Shown piece by piece: positions 33,686 to 61,143 of a stretch of DNA of 64,000 nucleotides; position 1 is the first letter of the stretch; each line of letters begins with the position of its first letter. The stretch spans positions 410,860-474,859 of the forward strand of contig JARFNK010000002.1 in NCBI GenBank assembly GCA_029167225.1. The letters are read 5' to 3'. The notes beneath the pieces are model-generated. The model was not told the DNA's origin and made no database searches. It was given only the letters and a program-made list of their open reading frames with translations. The stretch comes from Sphingobium arseniciresistens. Its GTDB lineage: Bacteria > Pseudomonadota > Alphaproteobacteria > Sphingomonadales > Sphingomonadaceae. A program made the position numbers and the translations under genes.

Positions 33686-33762
<77 letters not shown>

Positions 33763-42228: not shown

Positions 42229-42327
42229 TCCGCGATATTCTGCACTGTCTATCGCCATTGGCTTCCCTTGCATCTCACCGCTTCGTGCCCCATCCGAATG
42301 GAAAGGGTGGATCAACTACAAGGCGGT

Positions 42328-43360: not shown

Positions 43361-43380
43361 TTTTGCATCCGGATGCAAAA
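43361..43380. promoter_or_regulatory. Perfect 20-bp palindrome, candidate LacI-family operator
   Basis: TTTTGCATCCGGATGCAAAA is an exact inverted repeat with a central CG. It lies 25 bases after the LacI stop codon and 12 bases before the GTG of the HpsN-like gene. LacI-family operators are even palindromes with central CG, so the adjacent regulator is the natural candidate. Confidence 0.6.
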
Positions 43381-43392
43381 TTGAGGTGGAAC

Positions 43393-44715
43393 GTGGCGAT
43401 TTACCTGAAGCGTGGCTCCAAGGTCGAAAGCAAAGTCGCACGGGATCAGCAAGTTAGGTCTGTTGTCGAAGGCGTTCTCGAAATGATCGAGCAACGTGGT
43501 GACGAGGCCGTCCGCGAGCTGTCGATCAAGTTCGATCGCTGGGACAGGGAGAGCTATCGACTAACGGCTCGCGAAATCCAGGAATGTATCGATCAGCTCA
43601 GCGGTCAGGATCTGAAAGACATCGAATTTGCACAGGCGCAGGTCCGCAATTTTGCGCAGATCCAGCGAGACAGCATCGCCGATGTCGAGGTGGAAACGCT
43701 CCCCGGCGTCGTTCTGGGGCACAGGAACATTCCGGTAAACGCCGCAGGATGCTATGTGCCCGGCGGCAAATATCCCCTTCTCGCGTCCGCGCATATGAGC
43801 GTTATAACCGCCAAGGTTGCTGGGGTTGCACGGGTCGTATCCTGCGCGCCTCCTTTCAAGGGAAAGCCTGCGCCGGCGATCGTCGCCGCCCAGGCAATGG
43901 CTGGCGCCGACGAGATTTACTGTCTGGGCGGTATTCAGGCCATCGCCGCCATGGGGGTAGGCACGCAGTCGATCGCGCCGGTCGATATACTGGTCGGACC
44001 CGGCAACGCCTATGTGGCGGAGGCCAAGCGTCAGCTGTTCGGCCGCGTCGGCATCGACCTGTTTGCCGGACCAACGGAAACGCTCGTGATTGCAGATGAG
44101 ATTGGTTGTGATCCTGAGCTGGCCGCGACCGACCTGCTCGGCCAGGCCGAACATGGCCCTGACAGCCCCGCCATCCTCCTCACGACATCCGAAAAACTGG
44201 CCCGCGAGACCATCGTCGAGGTCGAGCGCCTTCTGCAGATTCTCCCTACCGCCGAGTATGCCCGGCTGGCCTGGGAAGGCTATGGAGAGGTCATCATTGC
44301 CGAAAGCGACGAGGAAATGTGCGCGATAGCCGATCAGATCGCGTCTGAGCATGTCCAGGTGATGACGGCGGATCCTGACTATTTCCTGCGTCACATGACG
44401 AATTTCGGAGCTTTGTTCCTCGGCGCGCGTACCAACGTCAGTTTCGGCGACAAGGTCATTGGCACCAATCACACTCTGCCGACAAAAGGTGCTGCGCGAT
44501 ACACAGGCGGCCTTTGGGTGGGGAAGTTCTTGAAAACCTGTACATATCAACGGGTGACATCGGATGAGGCATCTGCTCTCATCGGTGAATATTGTTCTCG
44601 CCTCTGCGCGCTGGAGGGGTTCGCCGCGCATGGGGAGCAGGCCAATATCCGGGTTCGCCGATATGGTCATCGGGACGTTCCCTACGCCGGCAAGGCCGAG
44701 CCGGCGCTCGTCTGA
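43393..44715 (+). CDS. Histidinol dehydrogenase-family NAD-dependent dehydrogenase, HpsN-like
   Basis: This 440-aa protein is a HisD homologue, with [31 protein letters not shown] and [17 protein letters not shown]. The segment after the last motif ([14 protein letters not shown]) resembles the HpsN group, which oxidises 2,3-dihydroxypropane-1-sulfonate to sulfolactate in two steps, more than true histidinol dehydrogenases. I take the GTG at 43393 as start, with GAGGTGG upstream. It is followed by an SDR and preceded by a candidate LacI operator. True histidine biosynthesis genes are absent, so a catabolic two-step alcohol-to-acid oxidation is likely. The substrate is unproven. Confidence 0.82.
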
Positions 44716-44719
44716 ATCG

Positions 44720-45487
44720 ATGGCTGTTCTTCCGAAAACGCCGAGTTTCAGGCTGGATGGTCGACGGGCTCTTGTCACCGGCGCCAGTCGGGGCATTGGT
44801 GCGGCGTTAGGCGTAGCACTGGCGGATGCCGGTGCTGCTGTTACGCTCGTGGCGCGCGGCATGGAGGCCGTGCAGGAGCTTGCGTCTGCGATCCGGGCTG
44901 GCGGCGGCCAGGCGGAGGCCGTTTCCCTCGATGTTCGTGATCTTGAAGCGGTCTCTGCCTATTTGGGGCAGGCCGAGGCTTTCGATATCCTGATCAACAA
45001 TGCCGGCACCAATCGCCCCATGCCGATGATGCGTGTCTCAGAGGCAGACTATGATGCCGTCCTCAACCTCAATCTGAAGTCGTCCTTCTTCATCGCGCAA
45101 GGTGTGGCAGGGCGTCTCATAGAGAGCGGCAAATCCGGGAGCATGATCCATATCGGATCGCAGATGGGCCATGTCGGTGGCCCCAATCGCTCACTCTACT
45201 GTGCCTCTAAATGGGCGATAGAGGGGATGAGCAAGGCCTTCGCGCTTGATCTGGCCCAATATGGCATTCGATCGAACGTTATCGCCCCGACATTCATCGA
45301 AACCCCGATGACCAAGCCTTTCTTCGAGGATCCGGCCTTCAAGGCAAGCGTCTTGCAGAAGATCAAAATCGGCCGGCTCGGTCAGGTGGAGGATCTGATG
45401 GGGGCGGCGCTGTTCCTCGCGTCGGATGCATCGGCGTTGATGACAGGTACGAGCCTTGTCGTTGATGGCGGGTGGACAGCCGAATGA
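44720..45487 (+). CDS. Short-chain dehydrogenase/reductase
   Basis: This 255-aa classical SDR has the cofactor motif TGASRGIGAALG, the NNAG motif, and the catalytic serine with YCASK, and it ends DGGWTAE. I chose the ATG at 44720, four bases after the HpsN-like gene; the longer frame from 44564 is a shadow. In sulfonate pathways an HpsN enzyme is accompanied by other dehydrogenases that invert the alcohol centre, which this SDR could do, but the pairing is only suggestive. Confidence 0.87.
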   Translation: MAVLPKTPSFRLDGRRALVTGASRGIGAALGVALADAGAAVTLVARGMEAVQELASAIRAGGGQAEAVSLDVRDLEAVSAYLGQAEAFDILINNAGTNRPMPMMRVSEADYDAVLNLNLKSSFFIAQGVAGRLIESGKSGSMIHIGSQMGHVGGPNRSLYCASKWAIEGMSKAFALDLAQYGIRSNVIAPTFIETPMTKPFFEDPAFKASVLQKIKIGRLGQVEDLMGAALFLASDASALMTGTSLVVDGGWTAE

Positions 45488-46279: not shown

Positions 46280-46335
46280 TTTGAGTGTGCGGTTGTGGCT
46301 TTGGAACGGCCGGATGCGGAAAGAAAGGGGAAATT

Positions 46336-46824
46336 ATGGACAGCTTGAAGGGAGCGCTTCGTCGTCTCGCAAAGGCGGTTGTCGTAATCACGAGTGCCGA
46401 GAACGGGGAAAGGTTTGCGATGGCAGCAACCGCCGTGAGCGAACTCAGTCTCGACCCGCCCTCAATGCTGATCTGCGTGAACAGGACAGCCTCGATCCAT
46501 CCGGTCCTCTCTCGCGGAATGTCGTTCGCCATCAATATCCTTCACCACGACCATGCGGACATTGCGGCGAATTGCTCCGGAAAAATGAAGGGCGAGGAGC
46601 GATTTTCGGTCGGGGAATGGCAAATGACGCCACAGGGGGTTCCGTTTCTGGCGGACTGCCAGGCCGCGATAATATGCCACAACGACAAGCAGCTGGATTA
46701 TGGGACGCACAGCCTCTTCATCGGGCGCGTCGCCGATGTCTCGTTGCACGGCGACGTCTCGCCCTTGATCTATGTCGATGGCCGCTTCACGCGCGCGATG
46801 GAACGGGATACGGTCAATGGCTGA
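46336..46824 (+). CDS. Flavin reductase (HpaC/NtaB-type small component)
   Basis: This 162-aa FMN-binding split-barrel protein of the flavin reductase-like family has VVVITSAENG, MAATAVSELSLDPPSMLICVNRTASIH and AINILHHDHADIA. It would reduce free FMN with NAD(P)H and feed the two LLM monooxygenases at 58.9 and 61.2 kb. I chose the ATG at 46336 with an AAAGGGGA ribosome site. It overlaps the RibBA-like gene by 8 bases. Confidence 0.92.
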   Translation: MDSLKGALRRLAKAVVVITSAENGERFAMAATAVSELSLDPPSMLICVNRTASIHPVLSRGMSFAINILHHDHADIAANCSGKMKGEERFSVGEWQMTPQGVPFLADCQAAIICHNDKQLDYGTHSLFIGRVADVSLHGDVSPLIYVDGRFTRAMERDTVNG

Positions 46825-47923
46825 CTGCGCGACGCTCGCATTGCCAATGATCTCTTCGATCGAAACGATCATTGATGAGGCCAGGAATGGACGGATGTTC
46901 ATTCTGGTTAACGATGGCGCTGCTGACGATGATGGTGATCTGGTTCTTCCAGCCCAGCTGACCACCCCGAACGCCATCAACTTCATGGCTCGGCATTGCC
47001 GTGGCCTCATCTGCCTCGCGCTGACAAAGGAGCGCGTCGACGAGCTTGCCCTGCCTGCCATGAATCCCAAAGCGGACGAGACGGGCCGGCCGTCCTTCAC
47101 GCTCTCCATAGAAGCGAAAAACGGCGTCTCCACTGGGATTTCTGCCGCCGACCGCGCGCGGACCATCCTTGTCGCGGCGGACCGGTCATACGGACGCGAT
47201 GCCATCGTGTCTCCCGGTCATGTCTTTCCCGTAACGGCTCATCCCGGCGGTGTGCTCATGCGGGCCGGACGAACGGAAGGTGCGACAGATGTCGTCCGAC
47301 TGGCGGGGTTGAACGCCGCCGGCGTGATGTGCCGTATCCTGCGCCAGGACGGTGGGGTGGCGCGGCTCAAGGACCTGCACGAATTTGCCGCCATCCATGG
47401 GTTGAAGATCGGCACTATCCGTGATTTGATTGCCTTTCGGCGACTGCACGATAAGCTGATCGAGCGCGATCATGAGGAACATATCACGCTCGCTGGCGGT
47501 CAGGTCTGGACTTCCATAACCTATCGCAACCGCATCGACGGCCTTCGCCACGACGTCCTGGTGAAGGGGGATATCCTCCCGAATATTCCCACGCTGGTAC
47601 GGATGCACCGCTTGTCGCTCTTCGACGATGTGCTGGGTGTTCCGGGCGCCAGAAGCCGCTTGCTGCAGCGGTCCATCGACTTGATCGAGCAGGAGGGGGC
47701 AGGGGTGATCGTTCTGCTATATCCCGCCGCCGACCACGCCTACGCCTATGGCCGGGCACCGCTCAACGACGAGACCGACCTGCGCTCCTATGGCCTTGGC
47801 GCGCAGATCCTTTCGGATCTGGGTGTTCAATCGATGGTCCGGCTGACCGATACGCAAAATTCCGTCGTTGCAGTCCAGGGCTTCGGCATCGACATCATCG
47901 GCGCCCGCCCGATTTTGGCCTAG
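46817..47923 (+). CDS. RibBA-like protein with altered catalytic residues in both domains
   Basis: This 368-aa protein has the layout of bifunctional RibBA. The N-terminal domain resembles 3,4-dihydroxy-2-butanone-4-phosphate synthase (LTTPNAINFMARHCRGLICLAL, GVSTGISAADRA, SPGHVFPV). But the acidic loop, normally DRENEGD, is GAADDDGD here, and the metal-ligand histidine of GHTEA is arginine in GRTEG. The C-terminal GTP cyclohydrolase II-like domain lacks the three zinc cysteines (HSECLTGD is replaced by HRLSLFDD). It overlaps the flavin reductase gene. It may have lost riboflavin synthesis and serve flavin handling, or catalyse something else. Confidence 0.85.
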   Translation: MADCATLALPMISSIETIIDEARNGRMFILVNDGAADDDGDLVLPAQLTTPNAINFMARHCRGLICLALTKERVDELALPAMNPKADETGRPSFTLSIEAKNGVSTGISAADRARTILVAADRSYGRDAIVSPGHVFPVTAHPGGVLMRAGRTEGATDVVRLAGLNAAGVMCRILRQDGGVARLKDLHEFAAIHGLKIGTIRDLIAFRRLHDKLIERDHEEHITLAGGQVWTSITYRNRIDGLRHDVLVKGDILPNIPTLVRMHRLSLFDDVLGVPGARSRLLQRSIDLIEQEGAGVIVLLYPAADHAYAYGRAPLNDETDLRSYGLGAQILSDLGVQSMVRLTDTQNSVVAVQGFGIDIIGARPILA

Positions 47924-48222: not shown

Positions 48223-49227
48223 TCATGCCTTCAGCAAGTCTGCAATTGCTGTCTCGAAAAAGGCAATGTCCCGCGGGTCACTGCCGGGAGATGCGCCGCG
48301 ATGACCCCAGATGGATGGCAGGACGCGCAACTCAGCGTTGGGCATGTGGGCTTGCTCGATCACGCTGTCATCGGGCGGGAAATACATGTCGGTCTGCGAA
48401 GGCATGATGATCGTCCGGGCCGTTATCGCACGCAAGGCGGCATGGAAATCCTTCGCGAAGCGGGGATTGTCGCTGATGTCGGCGCTTTCCCAGGTGCGGA
48501 TTTGGGCAAGGACATCATTGACGTCGCCAAAGGCATAGGGGTCTGCCCTGTCGAGATAGGCCTGCGTGCTGTCATGACCCTCGGCCAGGTGGAGGCCTGC
48601 CCTGTAAAAGGACTGGGAGAAGCCCCAGGCATCCGTGGTAAGCCGCATCCGGCGGAGCGACTCGACCGGATTTGTTTCATAATCCCCGCCTTGCCATTCA
48701 CATGGCGATGTCAGCGCCAGTTTCAGCGCCGCAAGATAGACATAATTGTGCGGAGATGTCCGCGCCGAGCCTGCCAGAGCCAGGATGCCGTCCATCTCAT
48801 CGGCATAATAGGCGCCCCACTGGAAAGCGATCTGCGCGCCCATGGACCGTCCAACGATCAGGCGCAGCCTCTCGATCCCAAAATGCTCGTGAAGCAAGCG
48901 CCGCTGAAAGCTGACATTGTCGAGCAGGCTGACATGGGGGAAGCGCATGCGCTCGCTTGGCGCAGGCATGTTGCTCGGTGAGGACGACATGCCATTGCCG
49001 AAAATGTCCACGACGACGATGAAATAGCGCGTGGGATCGAGGGGGCGGCCTTCGCCGATGATATAGCGTGCGGCCTCATGATTGCCCGCGCACCACGTCG
49101 GAAAGAGGATCGCATTGTCCCTGGCGGCATTCAGCTTGCCATGGGTCTCGAAGCCAATGAAGGCGGATGGCAATATCCCTCCATATTGAAGGGATACGTC
49201 GCCCAGTTCATAGCTTCCCACAGACAT
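48223..49227 (-). CDS. MetX-like alpha/beta hydrolase
   Basis: This 334-aa protein is related to homoserine O-acetyltransferase and acylase-type hydrolases. It has the N-terminal FETHGKLNAARDNAILFPTW, the nucleophile serine in IVGRSMGAQIAFQWG, an aspartate candidate in PSQTDMYFPP, and the catalytic histidine in SIWGHRGASPGSD. It follows the NicC-like monooxygenase by 41 bases on the same strand. True MetX is somewhat longer and acts in methionine synthesis; the context suggests a catabolic acyl or amide hydrolase instead. It is a candidate deformylase for N-formylmaleamate. Confidence 0.85.
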   Translation of the reverse strand: MSVGSYELGDVSLQYGGILPSAFIGFETHGKLNAARDNAILFPTWCAGNHEAARYIIGEGRPLDPTRYFIVVVDIFGNGMSSSPSNMPAPSERMRFPHVSLLDNVSFQRRLLHEHFGIERLRLIVGRSMGAQIAFQWGAYYADEMDGILALAGSARTSPHNYVYLAALKLALTSPCEWQGGDYETNPVESLRRMRLTTDAWGFSQSFYRAGLHLAEGHDSTQAYLDRADPYAFGDVNDVLAQIRTWESADISDNPRFAKDFHAALRAITARTIIMPSQTDMYFPPDDSVIEQAHMPNAELRVLPSIWGHRGASPGSDPRDIAFFETAIADLLKA

Positions 49228-49268
49228 TCACACGCCTCCGCAAATTCGCGCATATGCAAGGATGAACG

Positions 49269-50465
49269 CTAAGCGGCGGACGCAGTGTCGATGTGCTCGC
49301 TCTGCTGATCTGTCGCCGCCGTGCTGACAAGGGGCACGGTCATGGCATCATAGCCATAGCACCAGGTTGGATCGGTGGGATAACGCATCCAGATGTTCCT
49401 GTTGGACAGTGCCTGAACGCGCGACGTCCGCTCGAAACGGTTGGTGCGGTAGAGATCGAATGCACCCGCATAATCGCCATCGGCTCCATCGATGCAGCGG
49501 AAGAGCACTGCGGCATCCTCGATCGCCATGCCTGCGCCCTGGCCCATATGGGGCTTCATCGGGTGGCAGGCATCGCCCAGGAGAACAATGCGTCCGCGGC
49601 TCCACAGAGATAGCGGCTTGCGAACCAGCAGCGGCCATTTGCTGATCTGGGGCGCGGCCTTGATCAGGCGGATAACGTCTTCATGGAAGCCTTCATAATG
49701 CGCGAGCATCTCGGCATTCGTGGCTTCGACTGGATTGAGCCCTTCAAAATTCGGGTCGGGCGAACCCGTGACGAAATAGACTTCGTCTCGGACCTTGGTA
49801 AGGTAATACATGATGAGGTGCCGGTCTTCCTGGGCTGGATGCCGGTCATCCGACCAGAATTTCGCGCCGTCCGAACCAAGCTTATAGTCGCCGAGCAACT
49901 TGGTGGGGAAAATCGATCGGTAGGCGACGAAGCCCGAATATGTCGGAAGTTCGGGCCCGAGCAGGATGTCTCGCACGACGGAATTCACCCCGTCCGCGCC
50001 GATGACGATGTCTGCGTCGGCGGTGGTGCCATCGGCAAAGGTCAGCCGTGTTGATCCGCCCTTTTCGTCCAGGCCGGTGAGGCAGTGGCCGAAACGGATC
50101 CGATGCGCCGGGACCGCATTGCTCATGATGCTCTGCAGATCGCCGCGATGCAGATGGAGATGCGGGGCGCCATATTGCTCCTCCCACTCATCTTCCAACT
50201 GGGCGAAGTAGATCCGTCCTGTATCCCACTCACGGTTCAGCCAGCTTTCGGGCCGATTTCCTATCGCACATAGTTGGTCGAGAATGCCCAGGCTTTTCAT
50301 GACCTTTGTCGTATTGGGATAGATGTTGATCCCTGCACCCATGCGCGCGAGCTGGGGCGCCTGTTCATACAACGTATAATTATATCCGGCCTTCTCGAGC
50401 AGGATGGCAAGCGTCAGTCCGCCAAGTCCCGCGCCAACAATGGCGATATTGAGCTTCTTCTTCAT
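49269..50465 (-). CDS. FAD-dependent hydroxypyridine monooxygenase, NicC/HspB-like
   Basis: This 398-aa class A flavoprotein monooxygenase has the FAD motif AIVGAGLGGLTLAILL, the DG motif DIVIGADGVNSVVRD and the GD motif IVLLGDACHPMKPHMGQG. Many stretches recall 6-hydroxynicotinate 3-monooxygenase (for example KFWSDDRHP, DEVYFVTGSPDPNFEG, ISKWPLLVRKPLSLWSRGR, DPTWCYGYD). NicC decarboxylates and hydroxylates its substrate to 2,5-dihydroxypyridine, which fits the NicX gene upstream. I chose the ATG at 50465; a longer frame would include element F. The exact substrate may differ from 6-hydroxynicotinate. Confidence 0.87.
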   Translation of the reverse strand: MKKKLNIAIVGAGLGGLTLAILLEKAGYNYTLYEQAPQLARMGAGINIYPNTTKVMKSLGILDQLCAIGNRPESWLNREWDTGRIYFAQLEDEWEEQYGAPHLHLHRGDLQSIMSNAVPAHRIRFGHCLTGLDEKGGSTRLTFADGTTADADIVIGADGVNSVVRDILLGPELPTYSGFVAYRSIFPTKLLGDYKLGSDGAKFWSDDRHPAQEDRHLIMYYLTKVRDEVYFVTGSPDPNFEGLNPVEATNAEMLAHYEGFHEDVIRLIKAAPQISKWPLLVRKPLSLWSRGRIVLLGDACHPMKPHMGQGAGMAIEDAAVLFRCIDGADGDYAGAFDLYRTNRFERTSRVQALSNRNIWMRYPTDPTWCYGYDAMTVPLVSTAATDQQSEHIDTASAA

Positions 50466-50501
50466 CTCTCGAAATCCCATGACGATCTTTGAACCGTAAT
50501 A

Positions 50502-50514
50502 AAAGGGTGTGTAC
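50502..50514 (-). promoter_or_regulatory. GTATAC element F (NicC-like promoter)
   Basis: On the minus strand it reads GTACACACCCTTT, preceded by ATATAAC. It lies about 37-49 bases upstream of the NicC-like ATG. Confidence 0.4.
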
Positions 50515-50828
50515 GTTATATTTTTGCCCGAGGAAAGAGCGAGTACCGCAATTTTGGCAGAATCTTGCGCAGAAAAATGTGAGGCGATGCCGGTGTTCTG
50601 AACAACGAAAATCAAATAAAAATATTATATATCAAATTGATAAATAGATATCGATGCATCGCGCGACGGAGCAGATCCACGCCTGATCATATTACTCGCC
50701 GGCGGTCCAATTGGCGTGCTGGGCTGGATGGGACGCGATTTGCAATGCTTGCATCTGATTTTGAAAAGCGCCCGGCGCGACGTGCGCCGCCAGCCATGCT
50801 CGCTGTCGCGCCGGGCTGGTCCTTTCGC

Positions 50829-50871
50829 TTGCCCCATTCGTTCGCTGCCACTGCAACGCCGAATGGGGCAA
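50829..50871 (-). terminator. Hairpin downstream of the nicX-type operon
   Basis: A perfect 12-bp inverted repeat (TTGCCCCATTCG / CGAATGGGGCAA) with a 19-base loop lies 35 bases after the amidase stop codon. There is no T tract on the minus strand, so it may be a partial terminator or an RNA-stability hairpin. Confidence 0.4.
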
Positions 50872-50905
50872 AATTCTTCCGCCCCGTTGTGCGATGTCCG
50901 CTGGG

Positions 50906-51559
50906 TCAGCGGGCCTGTACGCCGGCAAGATAAGCCAGGGTTTCTTCTTCGCTGACAACGTCGCCATATTTCGCGTCGATGTCGAACAGATTGGCCTTGT
51001 GCGGTTCAGGGTGGCGATCACCCACGGCTTCGCGCACGACCATCGGACGGAAGCCCATGGAGCAGGTGTCCACCGCGGTTGCCCGGACGCAACCGCTCGT
51101 GGAAACCCCGCCGATGATCAACGTGTCGATGCGCTGCGAGGTCAGCAGGGCTGCCAGCGGCGTGCCGCAGAAGGCACTGGCATAGCGTTTCGAGATGATC
51201 ACCTCGTCGGCCCTGGGGACGATATTCGGTGGAAAATCGCCCAGCGGATTGCCCTTTTCAAAGCAAAGCAGCGGCAGCCGGATTTTCTCGAAGAATATGC
51301 CGCCGTCGGCGCCGCCCTTGGTATATTCGACATTGGTGAGGATCACGGGAATGTCGGCCTTGCGGCAAGCATCCATCAGGCGGACGGAGGATGCGAGCGC
51401 CGGCGCGAAATTCCGGTGATATAATGGCGATCCTTCCCGGAAATAGGCTTCTACCAAGTCGATCAGGAGAAGGGCGGGCTTTGCGCCGAACCCCAGCCGA
51501 TGTCCGAAGCCGGTCGTTTCATAATTGTTTGCGAGCAGTTCGCTGATATCAGGTTCCAT
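50906..51559 (-). CDS. Isochorismatase-fold amidohydrolase, NicF (maleamate amidase)-like
   Basis: This 217-aa cysteine hydrolase of the isochorismatase/N-carbamoylsarcosine amidase superfamily has a complete Asp-Lys-Cys triad: Asp34 in LLIDLVEAYF, Lys124 in IISKRYASAF and Cys157 in GGVSTSGCVRATAVD. In the nicotinate and picolinate pathways the homologous NicF/PicF converts maleamate to maleate and ammonia. It follows the NicX-type gene by 29 bases on the same strand, which supports that role. Confidence 0.85.
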   Translation of the reverse strand: MEPDISELLANNYETTGFGHRLGFGAKPALLLIDLVEAYFREGSPLYHRNFAPALASSVRLMDACRKADIPVILTNVEYTKGGADGGIFFEKIRLPLLCFEKGNPLGDFPPNIVPRADEVIISKRYASAFCGTPLAALLTSQRIDTLIIGGVSTSGCVRATAVDTCSMGFRPMVVREAVGDRHPEPHKANLFDIDAKYGDVVSEEETLAYLAGVQAR

Positions 51560-51588
51560 GTTTCTAGATATCCTTGTTCGTCAGCCGA

Positions 51589-52659
51589 TCAATCGAACGG
51601 CGGTTGATAAGCTGGAACGGCCTGGTCAGCCGGGATGACATTCCCGTCCGTGACAATAGGCTCGTCGTCGAGTTGAATGGAGCAGCGCCGCAAGGGGATA
51701 TCCATGTGGCAGGCGGTGTTTCTGGTGCCGCCGGCTTCGGTATTCGGCCCAGTGGAAAAGAGAAAATTGCCGTAAAAGGCGCGGCCGTCGATGGCCTGGG
51801 ACTCGGACTTTCCATAGAGCCCAAGGGCCGTCCACTGCGCGCGGTTCTGTAGGCCCCAGCCAAGATGGGAGAGCGCGAAGACCTCCGGATCGTTGAACGT
51901 CATCATGTAGGTCTTGAGATATTCGGCGTCGAAACCGCCCGAGAATTTGCGGATATACCCGCCCTCGAAGTCCAGCGTGATCGGGGACTGGGCATAGCGT
52001 TTGAAGGGGAGGATGATGTCGCCTGTGTCGATCACGATCCTGCCCGTGGCGGTCCCTTCATTGGCCCAAGTGAATAGAAAGCCGCTCGGCCAATTGTCCC
52101 AATGTCCCGGTTCGTCGGAGAAGCCATATTCTCCCACGCTGGGATACTGGCCGACTTCACAACGAAAATCGGTGCCGGCGCGCGATTGCACCGTCATGGT
52201 GCGCGCCTGCTCCAGCCTCTTTACGCCGGCCAGGACACGGCGCTTGTCGTCTTCATTCGGGAGCATGCGTGCGAGAACTTCAGGCGGCTCGATCACCGCC
52301 AGCATGCGCGATCCGCTATTGAGCAGTTCCTGCTGCTCGGGCGAATGGAGCAACAGCATCGTATCGATGATGAGATCCGCCGCCGCGAGCGCCTTCTTGG
52401 CGGCCTCGTGGCCGGAAAGGGCGGTTTCGCCCACATATCCGGTCGGATCATAGCTCGTATAGGTCACATAATTATGGCAGGGCAGCTCGACGCCATAGAC
52501 TTTCGCCTTCAGTCGCTGCGCTGCCTCCATCGCTGCCCACACGACACGAGGATTCGAGTTCCCGCTCTTGAGAATGGCGACCGATTGCGTTTCGTCGACG
52601 CGCGAGAGACGAAGAATATGCTCGAACATTTCGAGAAGTTCATTGTCACCTATGAGCAT
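51589..52659 (-). CDS. nicX: 2,5-dihydroxypyridine 5,6-dioxygenase
   Basis: This 356-aa enzyme closely matches Pseudomonas putida NicX. Shared stretches include LRLSRVDETQSVA, MEAAQRLKAKVYGVELP, IEPPEVLARMLPNEDDKRRVL, WPSGFLFTWANEG and NFLFSTGPNTEAGG. The four published iron ligands fall at the same numbers here: His265, Ser302, His318 and Asp320. The enzyme opens 2,5-dihydroxypyridine to N-formylmaleamate. It is the firmest evidence that this locus handles a pyridine ring. It is preceded by the lyase gene and followed by the amidase gene. Confidence 0.94.
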   Translation of the reverse strand: MLIGDNELLEMFEHILRLSRVDETQSVAILKSGNSNPRVVWAAMEAAQRLKAKVYGVELPCHNYVTYTSYDPTGYVGETALSGHEAAKKALAAADLIIDTMLLLHSPEQQELLNSGSRMLAVIEPPEVLARMLPNEDDKRRVLAGVKRLEQARTMTVQSRAGTDFRCEVGQYPSVGEYGFSDEPGHWDNWPSGFLFTWANEGTATGRIVIDTGDIILPFKRYAQSPITLDFEGGYIRKFSGGFDAEYLKTYMMTFNDPEVFALSHLGWGLQNRAQWTALGLYGKSESQAIDGRAFYGNFLFSTGPNTEAGGTRNTACHMDIPLRRCSIQLDDEPIVTDGNVIPADQAVPAYQPPFD

Positions 52660-52770
52660 GCCTCACTCCCATGCCGTAATGGCCATTCCATTGTGTCGAA
52701 GGCGAAGATTGATCGGGTGGTGCGGAACATTGTCCGCGAAGCCTGCCGCACGAGGCTGTTGCGCTTGCGG

Positions 52771-53643
52771 TCAATTTTCCGCCGCATTGACGAGATATTT
52801 TCTTTCGAATTCCCAGATGTCTTCAAAACCGAGCATGCGGGTGAAAGCCGGGAAGTCGTACATCGCTGTCTCGCCCGTCGATGTGCCGTGGTTGCGCAGT
52901 TCGCCATAGGCCGCCTCCAGCGCCGCGCCGGCGGACAGGAAACCGGCAGCCGGAAAAATGGCGATCTGATAGCCGAGTTCAGCCAGCTTCGCCGCAGGGA
53001 GCATTGGTGTCTTGCCGCCATTCACCATATTCGCAAGCAGAGGGGCGTCGATCCTTTCGCCAATCAGCTTGAGTTCCTCTTCGGTTTCGGGGGATTCGAT
53101 GAAGATCACATCGGCGCCGGCCGCAGCATAGGCCTGACCACGCTTTATGGCTTCGTCGATGCCATAACCCGTCCGCGCGTCTGTGCGCGCGACGATCAGG
53201 AAATCGTCGCTTGACCGGCTGTCGCAGGCGACTTGGATCTTCCGGGTCATTTCATCGATGCTGACGACTTCCCGATAGGGTGTGTGGCCGCATTTCTTGG
53301 GTGAAACCTGATCCTCGAACTGGATGGCGGTGACGCCGGCATGCTCATACCCGCGAACCGTGTGGCGGATGTTCAGCAATCCGCCATAGCCGGTGTCCGC
53401 GTCGGCGATGATCGGAGTCTTAGTCTTTTCCGCGATCTGCGCGACGCGGGTGAGCATGTCGGTGTAGGTCGCAAGGCCCGCATCCGGAAGGCCGAGATAA
53501 GATGCCACCGTGCCATAGCCGGTCACATAGAGGGCCTTAAAACCCATATTGTCGGCAATAAGCCCCGAAATCAGGTCATAAATGCCAGGAGCAACGATCA
53601 TTTCTCCATTTTTCAATGCGGCTTTCAAAGCTCCGTCGGCCAT
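52771..53643 (-). CDS. Isocitrate lyase/PEP mutase-family lyase
   Basis: This 290-aa TIM-barrel protein has the family start VAPGIYDLISGLIADNMGF, the metal-binding DADTGYGG, FEDQVSPKKCGH and IARTDAR. The KKCGH motif with its catalytic cysteine points to a lyase (2-methylisocitrate lyase or 2,3-dimethylmalate lyase type) rather than a PEP mutase. In the anaerobic nicotinate pathway a dimethylmalate lyase is used, but here it stands beside an aerobic dioxygenase, so its substrate is uncertain. It lies 23 bases after the 3-hydroxyacyl-CoA-dehydrogenase-like gene and 111 bases before nicX. Confidence 0.88.
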   Translation of the reverse strand: MADGALKAALKNGEMIVAPGIYDLISGLIADNMGFKALYVTGYGTVASYLGLPDAGLATYTDMLTRVAQIAEKTKTPIIADADTGYGGLLNIRHTVRGYEHAGVTAIQFEDQVSPKKCGHTPYREVVSIDEMTRKIQVACDSRSSDDFLIVARTDARTGYGIDEAIKRGQAYAAAGADVIFIESPETEEELKLIGERIDAPLLANMVNGGKTPMLPAAKLAELGYQIAIFPAAGFLSAGAALEAAYGELRNHGTSTGETAMYDFPAFTRMLGFEDIWEFERKYLVNAAEN

Positions 53644-53666
53644 ACCAAATGCTCCCTTGTTCGTGT

Positions 53667-54620
53667 TTACCTCGAAAGAATCGTAGGGCCGGCATTGCGC
53701 ATGGCGATGAGGTCGATAAGAAACTGATCTCGTTGACGGCTAAGCATCTCGATGGACTCGCCGTCAGTTTCTGCTTGGATGTCGGTCGCCAAACGGTGGC
53801 GGAGTTCTTCGCTCAGTCGGGGCGTCGGGCTGTCGTTCCACATCGTCTCCAATGTCTCGCCGAGATGCGAAAGGAAATGTGCGAGCCCCCCTTCGCCACC
53901 GCCAAGATGATAGAGAAGGTGAGGGCCCATGCCGCCCCATCTCAGGCCAGGCCCCCATGAGACCGCGCGGTCTGCATCGCCGGTGCTCACAAAACCCTGC
54001 TCAACGAGCCAGACGGCCTCGCGATACATGGCGTAGGCGATCCGGTTGGCGACATGGCCCTGAATTTCCTTGTTCAGCCGAATGCACTTCTTGCCCAGCC
54101 CGTCAAAAAAAGCCTGCGTGAAATCCACGACGGCAGCGCTCGTCGCGCGACCGCCCGCAATTTCCACCAGCGGCATGATATGGGGCGGATTAAAGGGGTG
54201 GGCGATGATGCAGCGTTCGGGATGATGATCGCAATCCCGCTGAATGTCGCTCATCATCAGGGCCGAGCTGCTGGAAGCAATTACGACCGATTCCTGAAGG
54301 ATCCGGTCCATTTGCTGGAACAGCGCCTGCTTCAGGGGGAGGCGTTCCGGGCCGCTCTCCTGCACGAAGTCAGCTGAAGCAAGGGCCTCTTCCAAGTCTT
54401 CATGAAACGAAAGGCGGTCGAGAGATGCGCCAGGAGCAAGGCCGATGCGTTCCAGATGCGGCCACATGCGCGCGACCTGGGCAAAAGTACGGCTGCCGCC
54501 GTCGGGTGCCGGGTCGGTGGCGCGTACGTCGAAACCCTTTGCGAGGAAGAATGCCGCCCAACTTGATCCGATCAGGCCGGTTCCTACGATCGCCACTGTT
54601 TTTACGGTCTTAAACGCCAT
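53667..54620 (-). CDS. 3-hydroxyacyl-CoA dehydrogenase-family protein
   Basis: This 317-aa NAD-dependent dehydrogenase has the Rossmann motif AIVGTGLIGSSWAAFFL and the catalytic histidine region IIAHPFNPPHIMPLVEI, then GHVANRIAYAMYREA. Single-domain relatives of this length include carnitine and L-gulonate 3-dehydrogenases, so the substrate may be a hydroxyacid rather than a CoA ester. I chose the ATG at 54620 over a TTG at 54635. Element G lies 34 bases upstream, and this is the first gene of the nicX-type operon. Confidence 0.88.
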   Translation of the reverse strand: MAFKTVKTVAIVGTGLIGSSWAAFFLAKGFDVRATDPAPDGGSRTFAQVARMWPHLERIGLAPGASLDRLSFHEDLEEALASADFVQESGPERLPLKQALFQQMDRILQESVVIASSSSALMMSDIQRDCDHHPERCIIAHPFNPPHIMPLVEIAGGRATSAAVVDFTQAFFDGLGKKCIRLNKEIQGHVANRIAYAMYREAVWLVEQGFVSTGDADRAVSWGPGLRWGGMGPHLLYHLGGGEGGLAHFLSHLGETLETMWNDSPTPRLSEELRHRLATDIQAETDGESIEMLSRQRDQFLIDLIAMRNAGPTILSR

Positions 54621-54961: not shown

Positions 54962-56050
54962 TCACGACGACAGGATCGTGCTTTCTGTCGGCTCCCAATG
55001 CGCCACGACTTGTGTGCCTTCCGGCCATTGTGGATCGCTGGCGCCCTGTACGCACTGTTTCAGTGCGACAATCTCGACTCCGCCCTCGGCGGCGATCACA
55101 TATTTTCGTGATTTGCCCAGATAGACGACGGTCTTTAGCTGGCCGGTGACGGAGTTCATGCCGTCGCTGGCGCGCACATCGGTACTGACGTGAACGCGTT
55201 CGGGGCGAACGACCAGGGTGGCTTTCTGTCCGACGGATATCTGATCGCCTCCGCGTCCACGCAGAAGCGATGAGCCCGCCCTGCCGGCAAGATAGCCGTC
55301 CTGGCGGCCCAGAATGTCGATGGGGATAAAATTTGAATCACCGATGAAGCCTGAAATGAAGAGCGACTGGGGGTTTTCGTAAATGTCATTCGCCGTGCCG
55401 ACCTGCTCGATCTTCCCCTTGTTGAAGACCGCGATCCGATCGCTCATGACCAAGGCCTCATCCTGGTCATGTGTCACATAAACAATCGTCATCCCCGTCT
55501 CACGATGAAGGCGTACAATCTCGAGCTGTATCTGCTCTCTCAGCTTCTTGTCGAGCGCGCCGAGCGGTTCATCCATCAGCAACAGGCGCGGCCGAAAGAT
55601 CATGGCGCGGGCAAGCGCGACGCGCTGTTGCTGGCCGCCTGAGAGCTGGGCTGGATAGCGGTTGCCGAAACCCGGCAGGCCGACCGTCTCGAGAGTTTCT
55701 TCCACGCGCCGCTGGATTTCAGACGCTGGGACCTTTCGCACCTCGAGAGGGAAGGCAACGTTTTTTGCCACGGTCATATGCTGGAAAAGCGCATAGTTCT
55801 GGAAAACGACACCGATATTGCGCCGATAGGGAGGCAGCCGATGTACCGGCTTGTCATCGAGCCGGATCTCCCCGGCGGAAACCGACGTAAGGCCGGTTAT
55901 CATCTGGAGTGTTGTCGTCTTGCCCGATCCGGATGGTCCGAGCAGGGTAAGAAACTCACCAGATGGCATCGAAAAGGAGATGTCGTCGACTGCTACGAAG
56001 TCGCCGTGCGTTTTGCGAAGATCTTTGACTTCAAGAATCGAGTTGTTCAT
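54962..56050 (-). CDS. ABC transporter ATPase, PotA-like (spermidine/putrescine family)
   Basis: This 362-aa ATPase has Walker [13 protein letters not shown], the Q-loop in [12 protein letters not shown], the signature [14 protein letters not shown], Walker [13 protein letters not shown] and the switch histidine in VTHDQDE. A C-terminal TOBE domain (about residues 280-350) follows. It energises the two permeases encoded upstream. Transporters of this family carry polyamines, organic cations or small organic acids. Confidence 0.95.
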
Positions 56051-56098
56051 CGGAAACCTTCAGGAAGAAGTTTTGACGGCGCTGTTTTGGCGATAACT

Positions 56099-56887
56099 TT
56101 AACTGCGGCTGCGACGGTTGATCACATGCTCCAGGATCAGCACGAACACGGTGAAAAGGAAGATCGAGGTGGCGACCGCGGCGATTGTCGGATCGACGGA
56201 GCCGCGCACGTTGGACCACATCTGGACCGAGACAGGTCTGATCATTGGGCTGCTGAGAAACATGGAAATGACCAGTTCCCCGAAGGACATCACTGCGGCG
56301 AACAGGAAGCCAGACAAGATGCTCGGCAGGATCATGGGCAGTGTTACGCGAAACAAGGTTCGGGCCGGTGTTGCGCCCAGGGTCAACGCTGCGCCTTCGA
56401 CATCGCTGTTGAGCGTCTGTAGCGAGGCCCGCACCACCGAGAAGACATAGGGAATGGAGAGGACAATGTGGGCCAGGATCAGGCCGCTATAGGTCCCCTG
56501 CAAGCCAAGCGCCCCGAATGCCCCGGATATTGCCGCGGCGGCGACGATGATCGGAATGATGAGCGGGAGCATGATAAGCCCCGAAAGAGCAGCCGCTGCC
56601 GGCAAGGCGCAACGGCAGGCGGCGATGGCCGCCCCGGTGCCGATCGCGGTCGCAATTATGGCGGTTGGGACGGTGATCAGGATCGACGTCACGATGGAAC
56701 TGCTCCAGTCGGGATCGCTCCAGATCTGATAATACCATCGCAGCGAAAACCCCGGTGGCGGAAAGGTCAGAAACGGCGCTGAACTGAGCGACAAAATCGC
56801 GACGATGATCAGCGGAGCCAGGAGATAGACAACAGCGGCTCCGGTGACGAAGCGCCGCAATATCGTCCAGATATTGATCTGCATCAT
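56099..56887 (-). CDS. ABC transporter permease, PotC-like
   Basis: This 262-aa inner-membrane permease has six predicted transmembrane segments. It carries the EAA loop typical of importers in VEGAALTLGATPARTLFRVTLP, which contacts the ATPase. It lies 13 bases after the PotB-like gene and 48 bases before the ATPase gene. Confidence 0.94.
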   Translation of the reverse strand: MMQINIWTILRRFVTGAAVVYLLAPLIIVAILSLSSAPFLTFPPPGFSLRWYYQIWSDPDWSSSIVTSILITVPTAIIATAIGTGAAIAACRCALPAAAALSGLIMLPLIIPIIVAAAAISGAFGALGLQGTYSGLILAHIVLSIPYVFSVVRASLQTLNSDVEGAALTLGATPARTLFRVTLPMILPSILSGFLFAAVMSFGELVISMFLSSPMIRPVSVQMWSNVRGSVDPTIAAVATSIFLFTVFVLILEHVINRRSRS

Positions 56888-56900
56888 GCCGGCTTCTCCG

Positions 56901-57800
56901 TCATTTTTTCGCCCCTCGAAGGGCTCGCCGATTGATAAGGTTCATCGCGCAGAAGATGAGGATCATTCCGAAAAGGAGAACGAGCGAGAGCGCGCTGGCC
57001 ATGCCCCATTCGCCAAGCTCCTCGATCTCGACGACGATAAGCTGGCTGATCATGGTATCGGAATGACCGCCGACCAGAGCGGGGGTGATGTAATAGCCAA
57101 GGCAGAGAGCGAACACGAGCGAGCAGCCAGACAGGATGCCGGGCACGGTCTGGGGCAAATATACGCGCAGGAAAGTCGTTACCGGACCAGCGCCCAGCAC
57201 GGATGCTGCCCGGGTGAGATTGTTGTCCAGCCTCGACATGACCCCGTAGAGCGGAAGGACCATCAGCGGCAGCTGCGCCTGGGTCATGGCGATCAGCACG
57301 CCGGTCCTATTGTAGATCAGCGGGAACGGTTCGGTAAGTATCCCCAGCTTCATCAGGGAGCGATTGATGACGCCATTGTCCTGCAAAAGGACCACCCACG
57401 CATAGCCCTGAACCAGAATACTGGTCCAGAGCGGGATCATGATGATGACCACCAGAACCTTGCGAACAGCCGGGCTCGCCTCGACGAGCGAATAAGAGAG
57501 TGGGAAGCTGATCAGCAGGCTCAGCAAGGTGACGCTGGCGCTGATGGCGACTGTGTTCCAGATGATTTTCCCGTAGACCGGCTCTTTGAGCAGCTCGATG
57601 AAATTGCCAAAGCCAAGCGCAGGGTCAGAGAAACCGCGCAGCAGGAACCCGCCCACTGGAAGCGTGAAGGTGATGAGAACAAGGATCACAGCGGGGAGGA
57701 TCAGCCATGCCCGTGGATCAATGTCCTTTCCGGCACGGATGTTGGAGCCGGTGCCTTTGCCGATCGACATCCTTTTTGCCGCAATTCGCTCCATCATCAT
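56901..57800 (-). CDS. ABC transporter permease, PotB-like
   Basis: This 299-aa permease has six or so transmembrane segments starting at ILPAVILVLITFTLPVGGF and an EAA loop (LTRAASVLGAGPVTTFLRVYLP). I chose the ATG at 57800, which overlaps the stop of the binding-protein gene by 4 bases; the frame extends to 57854 but would overlap more. Confidence 0.92.
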   Translation of the reverse strand: MMMERIAAKRMSIGKGTGSNIRAGKDIDPRAWLILPAVILVLITFTLPVGGFLLRGFSDPALGFGNFIELLKEPVYGKIIWNTVAISASVTLLSLLISFPLSYSLVEASPAVRKVLVVIIMIPLWTSILVQGYAWVVLLQDNGVINRSLMKLGILTEPFPLIYNRTGVLIAMTQAQLPLMVLPLYGVMSRLDNNLTRAASVLGAGPVTTFLRVYLPQTVPGILSGCSLVFALCLGYYITPALVGGHSDTMISQLIVVEIEELGEWGMASALSLVLLFGMILIFCAMNLINRRALRGAKK

Positions 57801-58846
57801 ACCAGCTTCCACAGCTGCCAGCGCTTGTTGATGGCCCGATAATTGGTTCCCCAATACTGGCCATCGACATCGACGCCGATCGCAAGATTTTTGGGGCTGG
57901 TCGGGATCCAGGGCATGATTTCCGGACGTATCAGCTTGAGGGCTGCAAAGTTGGTCGGGGAAATCGACTGGTCATTGGCCAGATAGGCCTGGTTCACCGG
58001 ATTGAGGCTTTCATTGACCAGACTCCACGCCATGTCCTGATTCCTGCCGCCAGCGGGGACGACGATCGGAGTGAAATCGCGCAGATTGCCGCGCCAGCTG
58101 ACTCCCACCCTGGCGCCATCCTTCACGCAGGCGAAGGCGCGACTGCTGAACATCATGCCGCACGTGACGACACCATCGACGATGAGTTGCTGGGCCTGGG
58201 AATAGGACTGATAGAAAATCGTCTTGTCCTTGATGCTATCCAGTTTTCTCAGCGCTCGGCCAATGTCGAGAGGGTAGAGCTGATGTGGCGGGACACCATC
58301 GGCGAGCAACGCGGTTTCGAGCGTGAACCTGGGGTCGCCTGGCAACATGCGCTTGCCGGGATAGCGTTTCAGATCGAACAGATCCTGCCATTCGCCGGGG
58401 GCTTTGCGATTGTGGAACGCGTCCATGGAGTAGGCGAGCACCATTGCCCCCGCGTCGCAACTCACGCCATGTTCCCAGCGAAACCGGGGCGGGACCTGCG
58501 ACAGATCGACGATGCTGGTATCGACCTTTTCGAGACGGTTGCCGAGACTGAACAGAATTGCCGGATTTCCGACCACGACATCCCAGTCGATCGAACCCGA
58601 ATCGAGCATGACGCGCAAACGTGCCGCACTGACCGGCCCGTCCTGGACGATCTTTGCGCCTGTCTTGCGCGTGAACGGCACGCAGAAGGCCTGCCTCTGG
58701 GCATTTTGGTAGACGCCGCCCCAGCTTGCGAAAACAAGCGTGCGACCGGAGAATTTGCCCGCTGCCTCGCTGCGGGTTGCGGGCAGGACGCTGCAGGCAA
58801 GTACGCCCGCCGCCTGCCTGAGTGCGTTTCGACGATCAATCAGCAT
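57797..58846 (-). CDS. ABC transporter substrate-binding protein, PotD-like
   Basis: This 349-aa extracytoplasmic solute-binding protein (family 1/PotD-like) has a signal peptide with an arginine pair (MLIDRRNALRQAAGVLACSV), then TLVFASWGGVYQNAQRQAF and a C-terminal lobe with SISPTNFAALKLI. I chose the ATG at 58846 over a TTG at 58867. It is 53 bases downstream of an LLM monooxygenase gene, so transporter and enzyme are probably cotranscribed and share a substrate. Confidence 0.9.
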   Translation of the reverse strand: MLIDRRNALRQAAGVLACSVLPATRSEAAGKFSGRTLVFASWGGVYQNAQRQAFCVPFTRKTGAKIVQDGPVSAARLRVMLDSGSIDWDVVVGNPAILFSLGNRLEKVDTSIVDLSQVPPRFRWEHGVSCDAGAMVLAYSMDAFHNRKAPGEWQDLFDLKRYPGKRMLPGDPRFTLETALLADGVPPHQLYPLDIGRALRKLDSIKDKTIFYQSYSQAQQLIVDGVVTCGMMFSSRAFACVKDGARVGVSWRGNLRDFTPIVVPAGGRNQDMAWSLVNESLNPVNQAYLANDQSISPTNFAALKLIRPEIMPWIPTSPKNLAIGVDVDGQYWGTNYRAINKRWQLWKLV

Positions 58847-58899
58847 GGGCCTGTCCAGATAGAGCAAAAGATCGGCGAGCTGGGCATGTTACGGGCTGC

Positions 58900-60204
58900 T
58901 TAGCTGGCCAGATTCCCGCGCAAGGTCGTTGCGCTATATTCTGTGCGGAACAATCCGCGGCGCTGCAACTCCGGCACGACAGCTCTGCAAAACTGTTCGT
59001 GGGACGTAGGAAATGTTGTGGGCATGATGACGAAGCCATCGCAATAGCCGGATTCGAACAGGTCCTGAAGCTCGTCGGCGATCATGCTTGGCGTGCCGAC
59101 GACGGCAGAATTCTCGCGCCGTTTCTTGGCGGCTTCGGAAAAGGTGACATTCGACTGATCGGCGACGCGCTGGATGAGCGCGGACGTCCCGTGGGTGCCC
59201 TGGTTTCCACGCACCTGCACGACTTCTTCCGCCGTCTGGTGCTTGCTCAAATCCGCGCCCACTTCAAGGGAGGCATAAGCAAGATCATATTCCGGATCCT
59301 TGAGCGCGTTCAAATAATCCGCGCGTTCGCGCGCAATGGATGCGGTTTCGCCGATGATGGGCGTGAAGCCCGGCAAAATCTTGCAGGATGAGGGATCGCG
59401 GCCGATGGCTCTCATGCGCTCGTGAAGGTCTTGCCGGAAAGCGAGCATCTGTTCCTTGTCGCTCCGCCCGGTAAACACGACTTCTGCCCAGCGCGCGGCA
59501 AATTCCCGCCCGCGGTCGGATCCTCCTGCCTGCATGATGACAGGATGGCCCTGGGGACTGCGCGGGGAGGGCAGGGGACCGCGTGTCTTGGTCCACTGAC
59601 CTTCATAATCCGCATAATGAACCTTTGCAGGATCGGCGAATATGCCTTTCTCCTTGTTGAAGATGAAGGCGTCCGGCTCCCAGCTGTTCCACAGCGCAAA
59701 GCAGGCCTCCATGACCTCGTCCGCGCGATCGTAGCGCTCATCGTGCGGCGGCATTGACGGCATGCCGGCGTTCTTCGCCTCAAGATCGCTGGCCGACGTC
59801 ACCACATTCCACGCGACGCGCCCACCGCTCAACAGGTCGACGGATGCCAGGCTGCGGGCAAGGTGGAAGGCGGTGTGGAAGCTCGTCGAAATGGTTGCTC
59901 CCAGGCCCAGATGACGCGTGACGCGCGCCATGATCGGCAGTACCGCCATCGGATCCAGATAGCTGTTTTGCCCGCCTGTCCGGACAAAGGTTTCGAGCCC
60001 CTTATAGGTATCTGCGACACCGAAGAGGTCAGCAAAAAACGCGCCATCCAGCTTTGCCGCCTCCATGACCTGGGCGATCTGCTCATATCGAACGGGGTTG
60101 AAAATGTCGTCCAGCGTCGCTTCCGGGTGGCGCCAGCCGCCGACATGCAGGGCGGTAGGGCCAGTCTTCAGATAAGCTACCAGATTCATCTTCCGCTTAG
60201 ACAT
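58900..60204 (-). CDS. LLM-class flavin-dependent monooxygenase (NtaA/SnaA/DszA family), first copy
   Basis: This 434-aa luciferase-like TIM-barrel monooxygenase uses FMNH2 from a separate reductase. Family features are HVGGWRHPEAT near the N-terminus, LGLGATISTSFHTAFHLARSLASVDLLSGGRVAWNVVTSAS, and MQAGGSDRGREFAARWAEVVF. Related enzymes oxidise nitrilotriacetate, EDTA, dibenzothiophene sulfone and pyridine-type compounds. It heads the potDBCA-like operon. The substrate is unknown. Confidence 0.92.
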   Translation of the reverse strand: MSKRKMNLVAYLKTGPTALHVGGWRHPEATLDDIFNPVRYEQIAQVMEAAKLDGAFFADLFGVADTYKGLETFVRTGGQNSYLDPMAVLPIMARVTRHLGLGATISTSFHTAFHLARSLASVDLLSGGRVAWNVVTSASDLEAKNAGMPSMPPHDERYDRADEVMEACFALWNSWEPDAFIFNKEKGIFADPAKVHYADYEGQWTKTRGPLPSPRSPQGHPVIMQAGGSDRGREFAARWAEVVFTGRSDKEQMLAFRQDLHERMRAIGRDPSSCKILPGFTPIIGETASIARERADYLNALKDPEYDLAYASLEVGADLSKHQTAEEVVQVRGNQGTHGTSALIQRVADQSNVTFSEAAKKRRENSAVVGTPSMIADELQDLFESGYCDGFVIMPTTFPTSHEQFCRAVVPELQRRGLFRTEYSATTLRGNLAS

Positions 60205-60877: not shown

Positions 60878-61143
60878 TTCGAACTGAAGTCTTGGCCCAT
60901 CGCAATGTGTCGTGGGCGTAGTCGGGCATGCTGATGATCGTGTGCTCCCGCATGCTCGCATTTTCGCTGTTCGACACCCAAATGGGTAAGGAATTCTGCT
61001 CTTCCGGGGATGGACTATGGCAAGAGGCGAAGGCGATTTATTGATAGTCGCTATCTATCATATGGTCGAAAACTTTTATTGGAACAGGGCATCTGTCTAT
61101 GAAATCTATTGACGGAGAATGCGGTTACGTTGTCAGATAATGA

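Follow-up and report, generated by a model that had tools for sequence, protein, structure and literature searches.

A NicC-NicX-NicF-type gene cluster in Sphingobium arseniciresistens with a candidate hydratase-lyase ending for pyridine degradation

The Nic-type core and its closest described systems

The closest described relatives of the gene cluster studied here are the nic pathway (NicABCDEFX; gene names that we take to be those of Pseudomonas putida KT2440) and the ndp nicotine cluster of Sphingomonas melonis TY. The cluster lies in a 64,000-nucleotide stretch of Sphingobium arseniciresistens DNA (the window), which spans positions 410860-474859 of contig C33, reaches the contig end, and belongs to a 6.6-Mb genome of 120 contigs with a contamination estimate of 6%. 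With the nic pathway, it has homologues of NicC, NicX, and NicF and a NicR-like MarR regulator in common. In contrast, the window lacks NicAB, NicD, and NicE and instead carries a MetX-like hydrolase, a lyase of the isocitrate lyase (ICL) superfamily, and an enzyme of the 3-hydroxyacyl-CoA-dehydrogenase family (HCDH). It further differs in that an LLM monooxygenase (LLM2) and a RibBA-like protein accompany the core and are conserved with it in another genome (locus L004). The ndp cluster shares a 2,5-dihydroxypyridine dioxygenase (NdpE) and a maleamate amidase (NdpG) with the window; as far as excerpts of its description go, it has the deformylase NdpF, the maleate isomerase NdpH, and an HSP monooxygenase and ends via deformylase, amidase, and maleate isomerase, whereas the window encodes a NicC-like monooxygenase and no isomerase (PMC5343071). 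This deformylase-amidase-isomerase ending was also found in 11 of the 12 canonical loci that we compared.

From its gene content, we read the cluster as a catabolic operon for a 6-hydroxynicotinate-type pyridine, probably one with a ring substituent, in which a hydratase and a lyase would provide the ending; we give this reading an even chance of being right. In the anaerobic nicotinate fermentation of Eubacterium barkeri, dimethylmaleate hydratase acts together with 2,3-dimethylmalate lyase. Both that route and our proposal would place an aconitase/LeuCD-type hydratase and then an ICL-superfamily lyase at the end of a nicotinate route; however, the E. barkeri route is anaerobic and uses different ring chemistry, whereas the proposed one would follow the oxygenase-based route. 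Among the titles and abstract openings listed by our searches of the open PMC library, none connected NicX clusters with LeuCD hydratases or with lyases of the ICL type.

Six open minus-strand genes form the core: HCDH (53667-54620, with an ATG start), the lyase (52771-53643), NicX (51589-52659), NicF (50906-51559), NicC (49269 to about 50465, with the start placed from homologues), and the hydrolase (48223-49227). The intergenic gaps measure 23 bp between HCDH and the lyase, 111 bp between the lyase and NicX, 29 bp between NicX and NicF, and 41 bp between NicC and the hydrolase, while NicF and NicC are 440 bp apart if NicC starts at 50465. Queries with NicA, NicB, NicD, and NicE from a complete nic operon elsewhere in the genome (contig C30: NicB, NicA, NicF, NicX, NicE, NicD, NicC, and MarR) and with LeuC and LeuD from L004 gave no tblastn match in the window at E ≤ 1e-5. 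The initial annotation had reported the upstream steps as absent, which holds for the window but not for the cell: NicA and NicB are encoded on C30 and on contig C51, and NicE on C30.

The NicX protein, a member of the 2,5-dihydroxypyridine 5,6-dioxygenase family, aligned without gaps over residues 3-346 to the solved 2,5-dihydroxypyridine dioxygenase 7cn3 (E = 1.4e-151). As had been annotated, it carries all four iron ligands (H265, S302, H318, and D320; Fe(II) ligands and residue roles as given in excerpts of PMC7910607), and the substrate-site residues L104, H105, E177, and R293 are kept as well. The substrate contact H189 of P. putida is replaced by Asn, which counts against membership as judged by the NicX family contacts; in P. 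putida NicX, this residue binds the 2-oxygen of the substrate, and the H189A variant retains 6.9% activity (PMC7910607, excerpt). Residue 189 is His in L004 and in two further related loci, L005 and L006, and Asn in the canonical locus L021. The NicX proteins of the window, L004, L005, and L006 form one clade (support 100/98), which sits beside NicX proteins of canonical clusters, including those of Pseudomonas, Pantoea, and Azospirillum. NicX was uncommon in the sampled genomes, with 7 of 397 in the family (E ≤ 1e-60), 7 of 385 in the class, and 9 of 398 in the phylum (both E ≤ 1e-100); the counts of NicX and of the lyase in these samples include the source genome. Among plasmid records, 206 had a NicX match, and six of them were opened. 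In L054, from the same class, a distant NicX (46%, 1265-2320) is immediately followed at 2263 by an aconitase/LeuC-like stretch (28%).

The NicC-type flavin adenine dinucleotide (FAD) monooxygenase had 6-hydroxynicotinate 3-monooxygenase as its top PDB match (2.1e-105). It had been annotated as NicC/HspB-like; the NicC part stood, while an HspB-type (nicotine) role was dropped, as HspB matched only at 6.7e-12. The protein keeps H211, Y215, and H302 (P. fulva numbering, as for all NicC residues here), presumably the active-site positions. Against NicC membership, all three aligned clade members have Asn at position 47 (where each of the 10 canonical rows carries His or Gln), a gap at position 202, and Phe in place of W205. 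Compared with the same rows, the NicC proteins of the window, L004, and L005 carry W205F (Trp in 10/10) as well as F199S and H183Y (9/10); these differences are hints only toward a different substrate. NicF, a NicF-type maleamate amidohydrolase with the isochorismatase fold, agrees with the earlier assignment. Its best PDB match was N-carbamoylsarcosine amidohydrolase (26st), followed by 3ot4 and 3uao, which are listed as putative isochorismatase and which we take to be Bordetella NicF. By sequence, a NicC-NicX-NicF core acting on a hydroxypyridine is well supported; the unusual N-heterocycle that the initial annotation had suggested as the substrate is plausible only.

A scan of genome contigs gave four loci. 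Searching genomes for the same gene set, as had been proposed, turned up a single further genome, that of L004, in which the six genes occur together with LLM2 and the RibBA-like gene (64-88% protein identity). There, the order is LeuC, LeuD, TonB receptor, a 743-amino acid protein, HCDH, lyase, NicX, NicF, MarR, NicC, hydrolase, LLM2, and RibBA. The upstream LeuC and LeuD genes share the orientation of the cluster, and MarR, between nicF and nicC, is on the opposite strand. Identities to the window proteins are 71% for HCDH, 82% for the lyase, 85% for NicX, 82% for NicF, 87% for NicC, 78% for the hydrolase, 88% for LLM2, and 64% for RibBA. The 743-amino acid protein had no match in NCBIfam (1e-10), Pfam (1e-3), or PDB (E 1), and the label CehA is unsupported for it. 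In L005, NicX, NicF, NicC, and the hydrolase are 66-72% identical to those of the window; their neighbours are CoxLMS-type subunits, an LLM, a lyase that carries a GG loop, an amidohydrolase, and an SDR. The L006 contig spans 4.2 kb and encodes CoxL, NicX, NicF, and the beginning of NicC.

The MetX-like hydrolase and the lyase

The initial annotation recorded no identifiable NicD; the C30 NicD indeed had no match in the window, but the MetX-like alpha/beta hydrolase, which stands in place of NicD, had been overlooked. This protein belongs to the PRK07581 subfamily (390 bits, cut-off 332), carries the motifs GRSMG, TDMYFPPD, and WGHR, and gave no BLASTP alignment with the C30 NicD. We compared 12 canonical loci of 17-29 kb (L007, L008, L016-L021, L051-L053, and L055, with 4-kb NicX loci excluded; the L021 and L053 stretches are without NicC) with the longer loci of the window NicX clade, that is, without L006. 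The canonical loci had NicD in 12/12 and NicE in 11/12 cases (not L021) and neither the lyase nor the MetX-like hydrolase (0/12 each), whereas the window, L004, and L005 had neither NicD nor NicE (0/3) and all carried the MetX-like hydrolase, the GG-loop lyase, and an LLM (3/3). Because the pattern is reversed in these three loci, we regard the MetX-like hydrolase as the leading deformylase candidate and the likely replacement of NicD, and from the same co-occurrence we infer that the ending uses something other than NicE. Among the 12 canonical loci, L020 and L053 likewise lack NicAB. A Serratia Ser-His-Asp hydrolase has N-formylmaleamate deformylase activity (PMC13230308, excerpt). With a threshold of E ≤ 1e-5, the L004 and L006 genomes gave no NicE homologue and the L005 genome gave two at 27-28%, all three being metagenome-assembled genomes (MAGs) of unstated completeness.

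The source genome has three NicX genes, located in the window, on C30, and on C51. The C51 locus (L009, 1-20000) encodes NicB, NicA, a MetX-like hydrolase, a GatA-type amidase, NicX, and NicC and is without NicE and NicD; the set of L058 resembles it, as does that of L057, which is without NicC in the stretch. The MetX-like hydrolase is present in all three of these loci of a second NicX type. In the NicX proteins of this type, residue 293 is Leu, not Arg; loss of Arg293 abolishes iron binding in P. putida NicX.

The lyase, a candidate (alkyl)malate lyase, carries the sequence QVSPKKCGH, which conforms to the presumably catalytic K-[KR]-C-G-H motif of the PEP mutase/ICL superfamily. A methylisocitrate lyase or propionate role was rejected, as the protein scored 271 bits, below the PrpB cut-off (TIGR02317, 354.4), and has an NGG rather than a TEFG loop. 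It shares the superfamily and the CGH motif with petal death protein (1zlp), 2,3-dimethylmalate lyase (3fa3), and methylisocitrate lyase (1mum), all of which it matched distantly (phmmer 1e-49 to 1e-52). Its loop (ANMVNGGKTP) has the GG of petal death protein (ANMIEGGKTP), compared with NMVEHGATP in dimethylmalate lyase and TEFG in methylisocitrate lyases, and petal death protein ranked second for a profile of nine window-type lyases. Petal death protein and dimethylmalate lyase cleave 2-alkyl- and 2,3-dialkylmalates. The class sample (385 genomes) contained 27 genomes with a close relative of the window lyase, and the phylum sample (398 genomes) contained six (E ≤ 1e-105).

The lyase is no odd companion of the core, as its relatives recur beside NicF-type amidases and LeuCD elsewhere. 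Our only unbiased neighbour count used a 1.5-kb distance and all 30 outside survey matches (L059-L088): a NicF-type gene (49-57% identity) lay within this distance of a lyase relative in six loci, with 0.03 expected from the density in 19 of these genomes (E ≤ 1e-30), and LeuC or LeuD in three. A regular expression matched the loop in 18 of the 30, two of these without GG, and left 12 unmatched. In biased counts on 20 regions selected after their neighbours were known, 8 of the 19 outside genomes had a NicF homologue no more than 10 kb from the lyase (0.15 expected), and LeuC was present in four of the regions. In L107, the ICL, LeuC, LeuD, NicF, and amidase genes form a head-to-tail run in which the spacings are 23, 3, and 28 bp and one junction overlaps by 4 bp.

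A lyase match was found in 460 plasmid records. Among the eight opened, LeuC-LeuD accompanied the lyase in five, two of them near-copies, and was missing from two. LeuC-LeuD adjoins the lyase in Skermanella and Pseudoroseomonas as well as in the near-copies pJE1 and TomTYG65, and lies within 3.5 kb of it on an Azospirillum plasmid, where a second lyase adjoins. In an unannotated Allorhizobium plasmid locus, NicF is present and LeuCD was not found. The Skermanella unit combines a tricarboxylate-type transporter with LeuCD and the lyase, so the LeuCD-lyase pair may suffice for an imported acid. From these lyase-NicF-LeuCD neighbourhoods, which are its main support, the lyase would be the step that follows NicF and a hydratase.

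A lyase, a NicF-type amidase, and an Asp/Glu-racemase-family protein occur together in L092, L105, L119, L098, and L099, with an FAD monooxygenase in L092 and L119 and polysaccharide-deacetylase-family proteins in L092, L098, and L099. These sets are possibly imide or other maleamate-forming routes. The polysaccharide-deacetylase family includes cyclic imide hydrolases.

Proposed pathway and alternative explanations

In the proposed pathway, NicC would decarboxylate and hydroxylate its substrate to a 2,5-dihydroxypyridine, and NicX would open the ring between C5 and C6 to give an N-formylmaleamate. The MetX-like hydrolase would remove formate and NicF ammonia, leaving a maleate. Rather than being isomerized to fumarate by NicE, this maleate would be hydrated to an (alkyl)malate by a LeuCD-type hydratase, encoded in the cluster in L004 and on contig C49 in the source genome, and the lyase would cleave the product, releasing a short acid along with either pyruvate or glyoxylate as the 2-oxoacid. 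The LLM monooxygenases, together with a flavin reductase and RibBA, may carry out an earlier oxidation, and HCDH would oxidize a hydroxyacid. Such an ending fits an alkyl substituent on C3 or C4 of the ring, since isomerization alone does not suffice to bring an alkylmaleate into the tricarboxylic acid (TCA) cycle. Plain maleate could go via the C30 NicE, and the second and third NicX sets would then look redundant. The gene content speaks for a maleate that bears a substituent, and consequently for a substituted hydroxypyridine, and suggests that the bacterium uses a decorated pyridine and not plain vitamin B3.

Contig C49 (L045, 1-15051) encodes LeuC (78%), LeuD (58%), and a homologue of the 743-amino acid protein (66%), all relative to L004, and also HCDH (67% identical to that of the window) and a truncated lyase (82% over 209 amino acids) beside CoxL. 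It further carries an amino-acid-type ABC importer, an amidase, and an LLM. A three-subunit CoxLMS hydroxylase was rejected as the upstream step: CoxL is on C49, but the best CoxM (27%) is on another contig, and CoxM had no match in the L004 genome.

Several points weigh against the substituted-pyridine reading. The only NicX substrate reported is 2,5-dihydroxypyridine (PMC7910607, excerpt), which speaks against a substituted ring. The window contains no LeuCD, and its tie to C49 is by homology only; moreover, the C49 lyase copy is cut short, with similarity ending 77 bp from the contig start. LeuC is present in four copies in the genome (C1, C2, C49, and C66; 63-78% identical to L004 LeuC), a number that should exceed the need of leucine synthesis. 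In L005, the lyase lies on the other strand and is only 38% identical to that of the window, and both LeuCD and HCDH are missing from the 16.3 kb, so that LeuCD is in the cluster in one of three loci. Among solved structures related to the lyase, the top-scoring one is 4iqd, which is annotated as a phosphorylmutase and has a TEFG loop. HCDH, the LLMs, and the importer lack an assigned step, and the C30 NicE could process plain maleate.

The cluster might therefore be an ordinary extra copy for plain 2,5-dihydroxypyridine, with NicAB supplied from C30 or C51, maleate handled by the C30 NicE, and the lyase and HCDH adjacent by chance. The catalytic residues and most substrate contacts do equal those of P. 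putida NicX, and C30 encodes NicA, NicB, NicC, NicD, NicE, NicF, and NicX; however, L004 shares the operon although its genome (a MAG) yielded no NicE, the lyase and HCDH stand directly ahead of nicX in both the window and L004, and the lyase-NicF linkage is seen in other genomes; we consider this explanation unlikely. Marginally less likely again is a new ending for plain maleate, in which a LeuCD-type maleate hydratase would form D-malate and the lyase would yield glyoxylate and acetate, with no ring substituent. It draws on the same gene evidence as the substituted-pyridine reading and agrees with the reported strictness of NicX for plain 2,5-dihydroxypyridine (PMC7910607, excerpt), yet it would be redundant with C30 in the source genome, and malate reaches the TCA cycle without a lyase. 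The hydratase-lyase ending as such has about an even chance with the preferred substituent, to which the small share for plain maleate via the same enzymes adds. Bacterial LeuCD-type maleate hydratases occur in the Pseudomonas gentisate pathway, for which our literature search gave no confirmation.

Two further explanations concern the surrounding genes and the state of the locus. HCDH and the LLM1-PotDBCA run could serve a carnitine- or polyamine-like compound, the pyridine core being unrelated. L-carnitine dehydrogenase is the closest NCBIfam family of HCDH (NF005471, 286 bits, below the cut-off of 414), neither LLM1 nor PotDBCA was seen in the open reading frame list of the 17.5-kb L004 stretch, and L005 is without HCDH, but HCDH adjoins both the lyase and nicX in L004 and the lyase on C49, and we consider this explanation improbable. 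That the locus is a decaying island, with an Asn189 NicX and partner genes elsewhere as a weakened relic, seems very improbable: it would fit the 6.9% activity of the P. putida H189A variant (PMC7910607, excerpt) and the truncated C49 lyase, but all six reading frames are open, their products being 71-87% identical to the L004 counterparts, and Asn189 occurs in the canonical locus L021 too, one of the 12 compared.

If the substituted-pyridine reading is true, the different deformylase and the hydratase-lyase ending would show how bacteria mineralize substituted pyridines, which the plain nic enzymes should be unable to finish, and would provide functions for LeuCD and isocitrate-lyase-like genes that are found repeatedly in the class as orphans. 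A broader and more doubtful proposal, which we advance tentatively, is that the lyase, a LeuCD-type hydratase, and a NicF-type amidase constitute a funnel, widespread but so far undescribed, that takes in alkyl- and dialkylmaleates from different rings. The window operon would be its aerobic pyridine branch, ending like the anaerobic nicotinate fermentation, and elsewhere, at loci that also encode polysaccharide-deacetylase-family proteins, the funnel might perhaps take maleimides (for example, tetrapyrrole breakdown products). P. putida with the PA0878-0883 cluster did not use citraconate or (R)-citramalate (PMC9875883, excerpt).

Flanking genes

The families that the initial annotation had assigned to the LLM, PotABCD-like, isocitrate-lyase-family, and HCDH-like neighbours were borne out. 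LLM1 (58900-60204, minus strand) and LLM2 (61119-62504, plus strand) are flavin mononucleotide (FMN) monooxygenases that both exceed the NtaA/DmoA subfamily cut-off; LLM2 corresponds to the gene after the hydrolase in L004. LLM1 heads the LLM1-PotD-PotB-PotC-PotA run, whose PotDBCA-like ABC importer (54962-58867, minus strand) was assigned by family matches and consists of PotD (57797-58867), PotB (56901-57854), PotC (56099-56887), and PotA (54962-56050), the last exceeding the potA subfamily cut-off. On the plus strand, a RutF/HpaC-type flavin reductase (46285-46824), which scored under the family cut-offs, is the proposed partner of the LLMs, and the RibBA-like riboflavin biosynthesis protein (46772-47923) may supply flavin. 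A link to riboflavin breakdown via RibBA was discarded, as no common intermediate or enzyme was seen in excerpts of PMC12746152.

The likely regulator is the MarR protein (33890-34345, minus strand), which is 66% identical to the L004 MarR and 35% identical to the C30 NicR. In the window, it stands away from the core genes, next to tRNA-Pro; the tRNA-Pro(TGG) gene directly precedes it (33686-34345 for both). G+C content per 2 kb is 0.595-0.657 ahead of 34 kb and 0.530-0.610 from there to the contig end, and the region beyond tRNA-Pro, as far as the end of the contig, has the look of an acquired island. As an integration site, tRNA-Pro was rejected: no att copy was found, and the 3' tail matched elsewhere only tRNA-Pro(CGG) with at most one mismatch.

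A LacI regulator (42268-43335) precedes a HisD-like dehydrogenase (43363-44715) and an SDR (44564-45487), both on the plus strand and of uncertain pathway membership. Contig C2 encodes LeuCD, a lyase (51%), and, adjoining the lyase, a HisD that is 79% identical to that of the window; L117 has LeuCD, two lyases, HCDH (33%), LacI (45%), an SDR (54%), and HisD (71%). Based on these two neighbourhoods, the LacI-HisD-SDR block of the window may share the same pathway.

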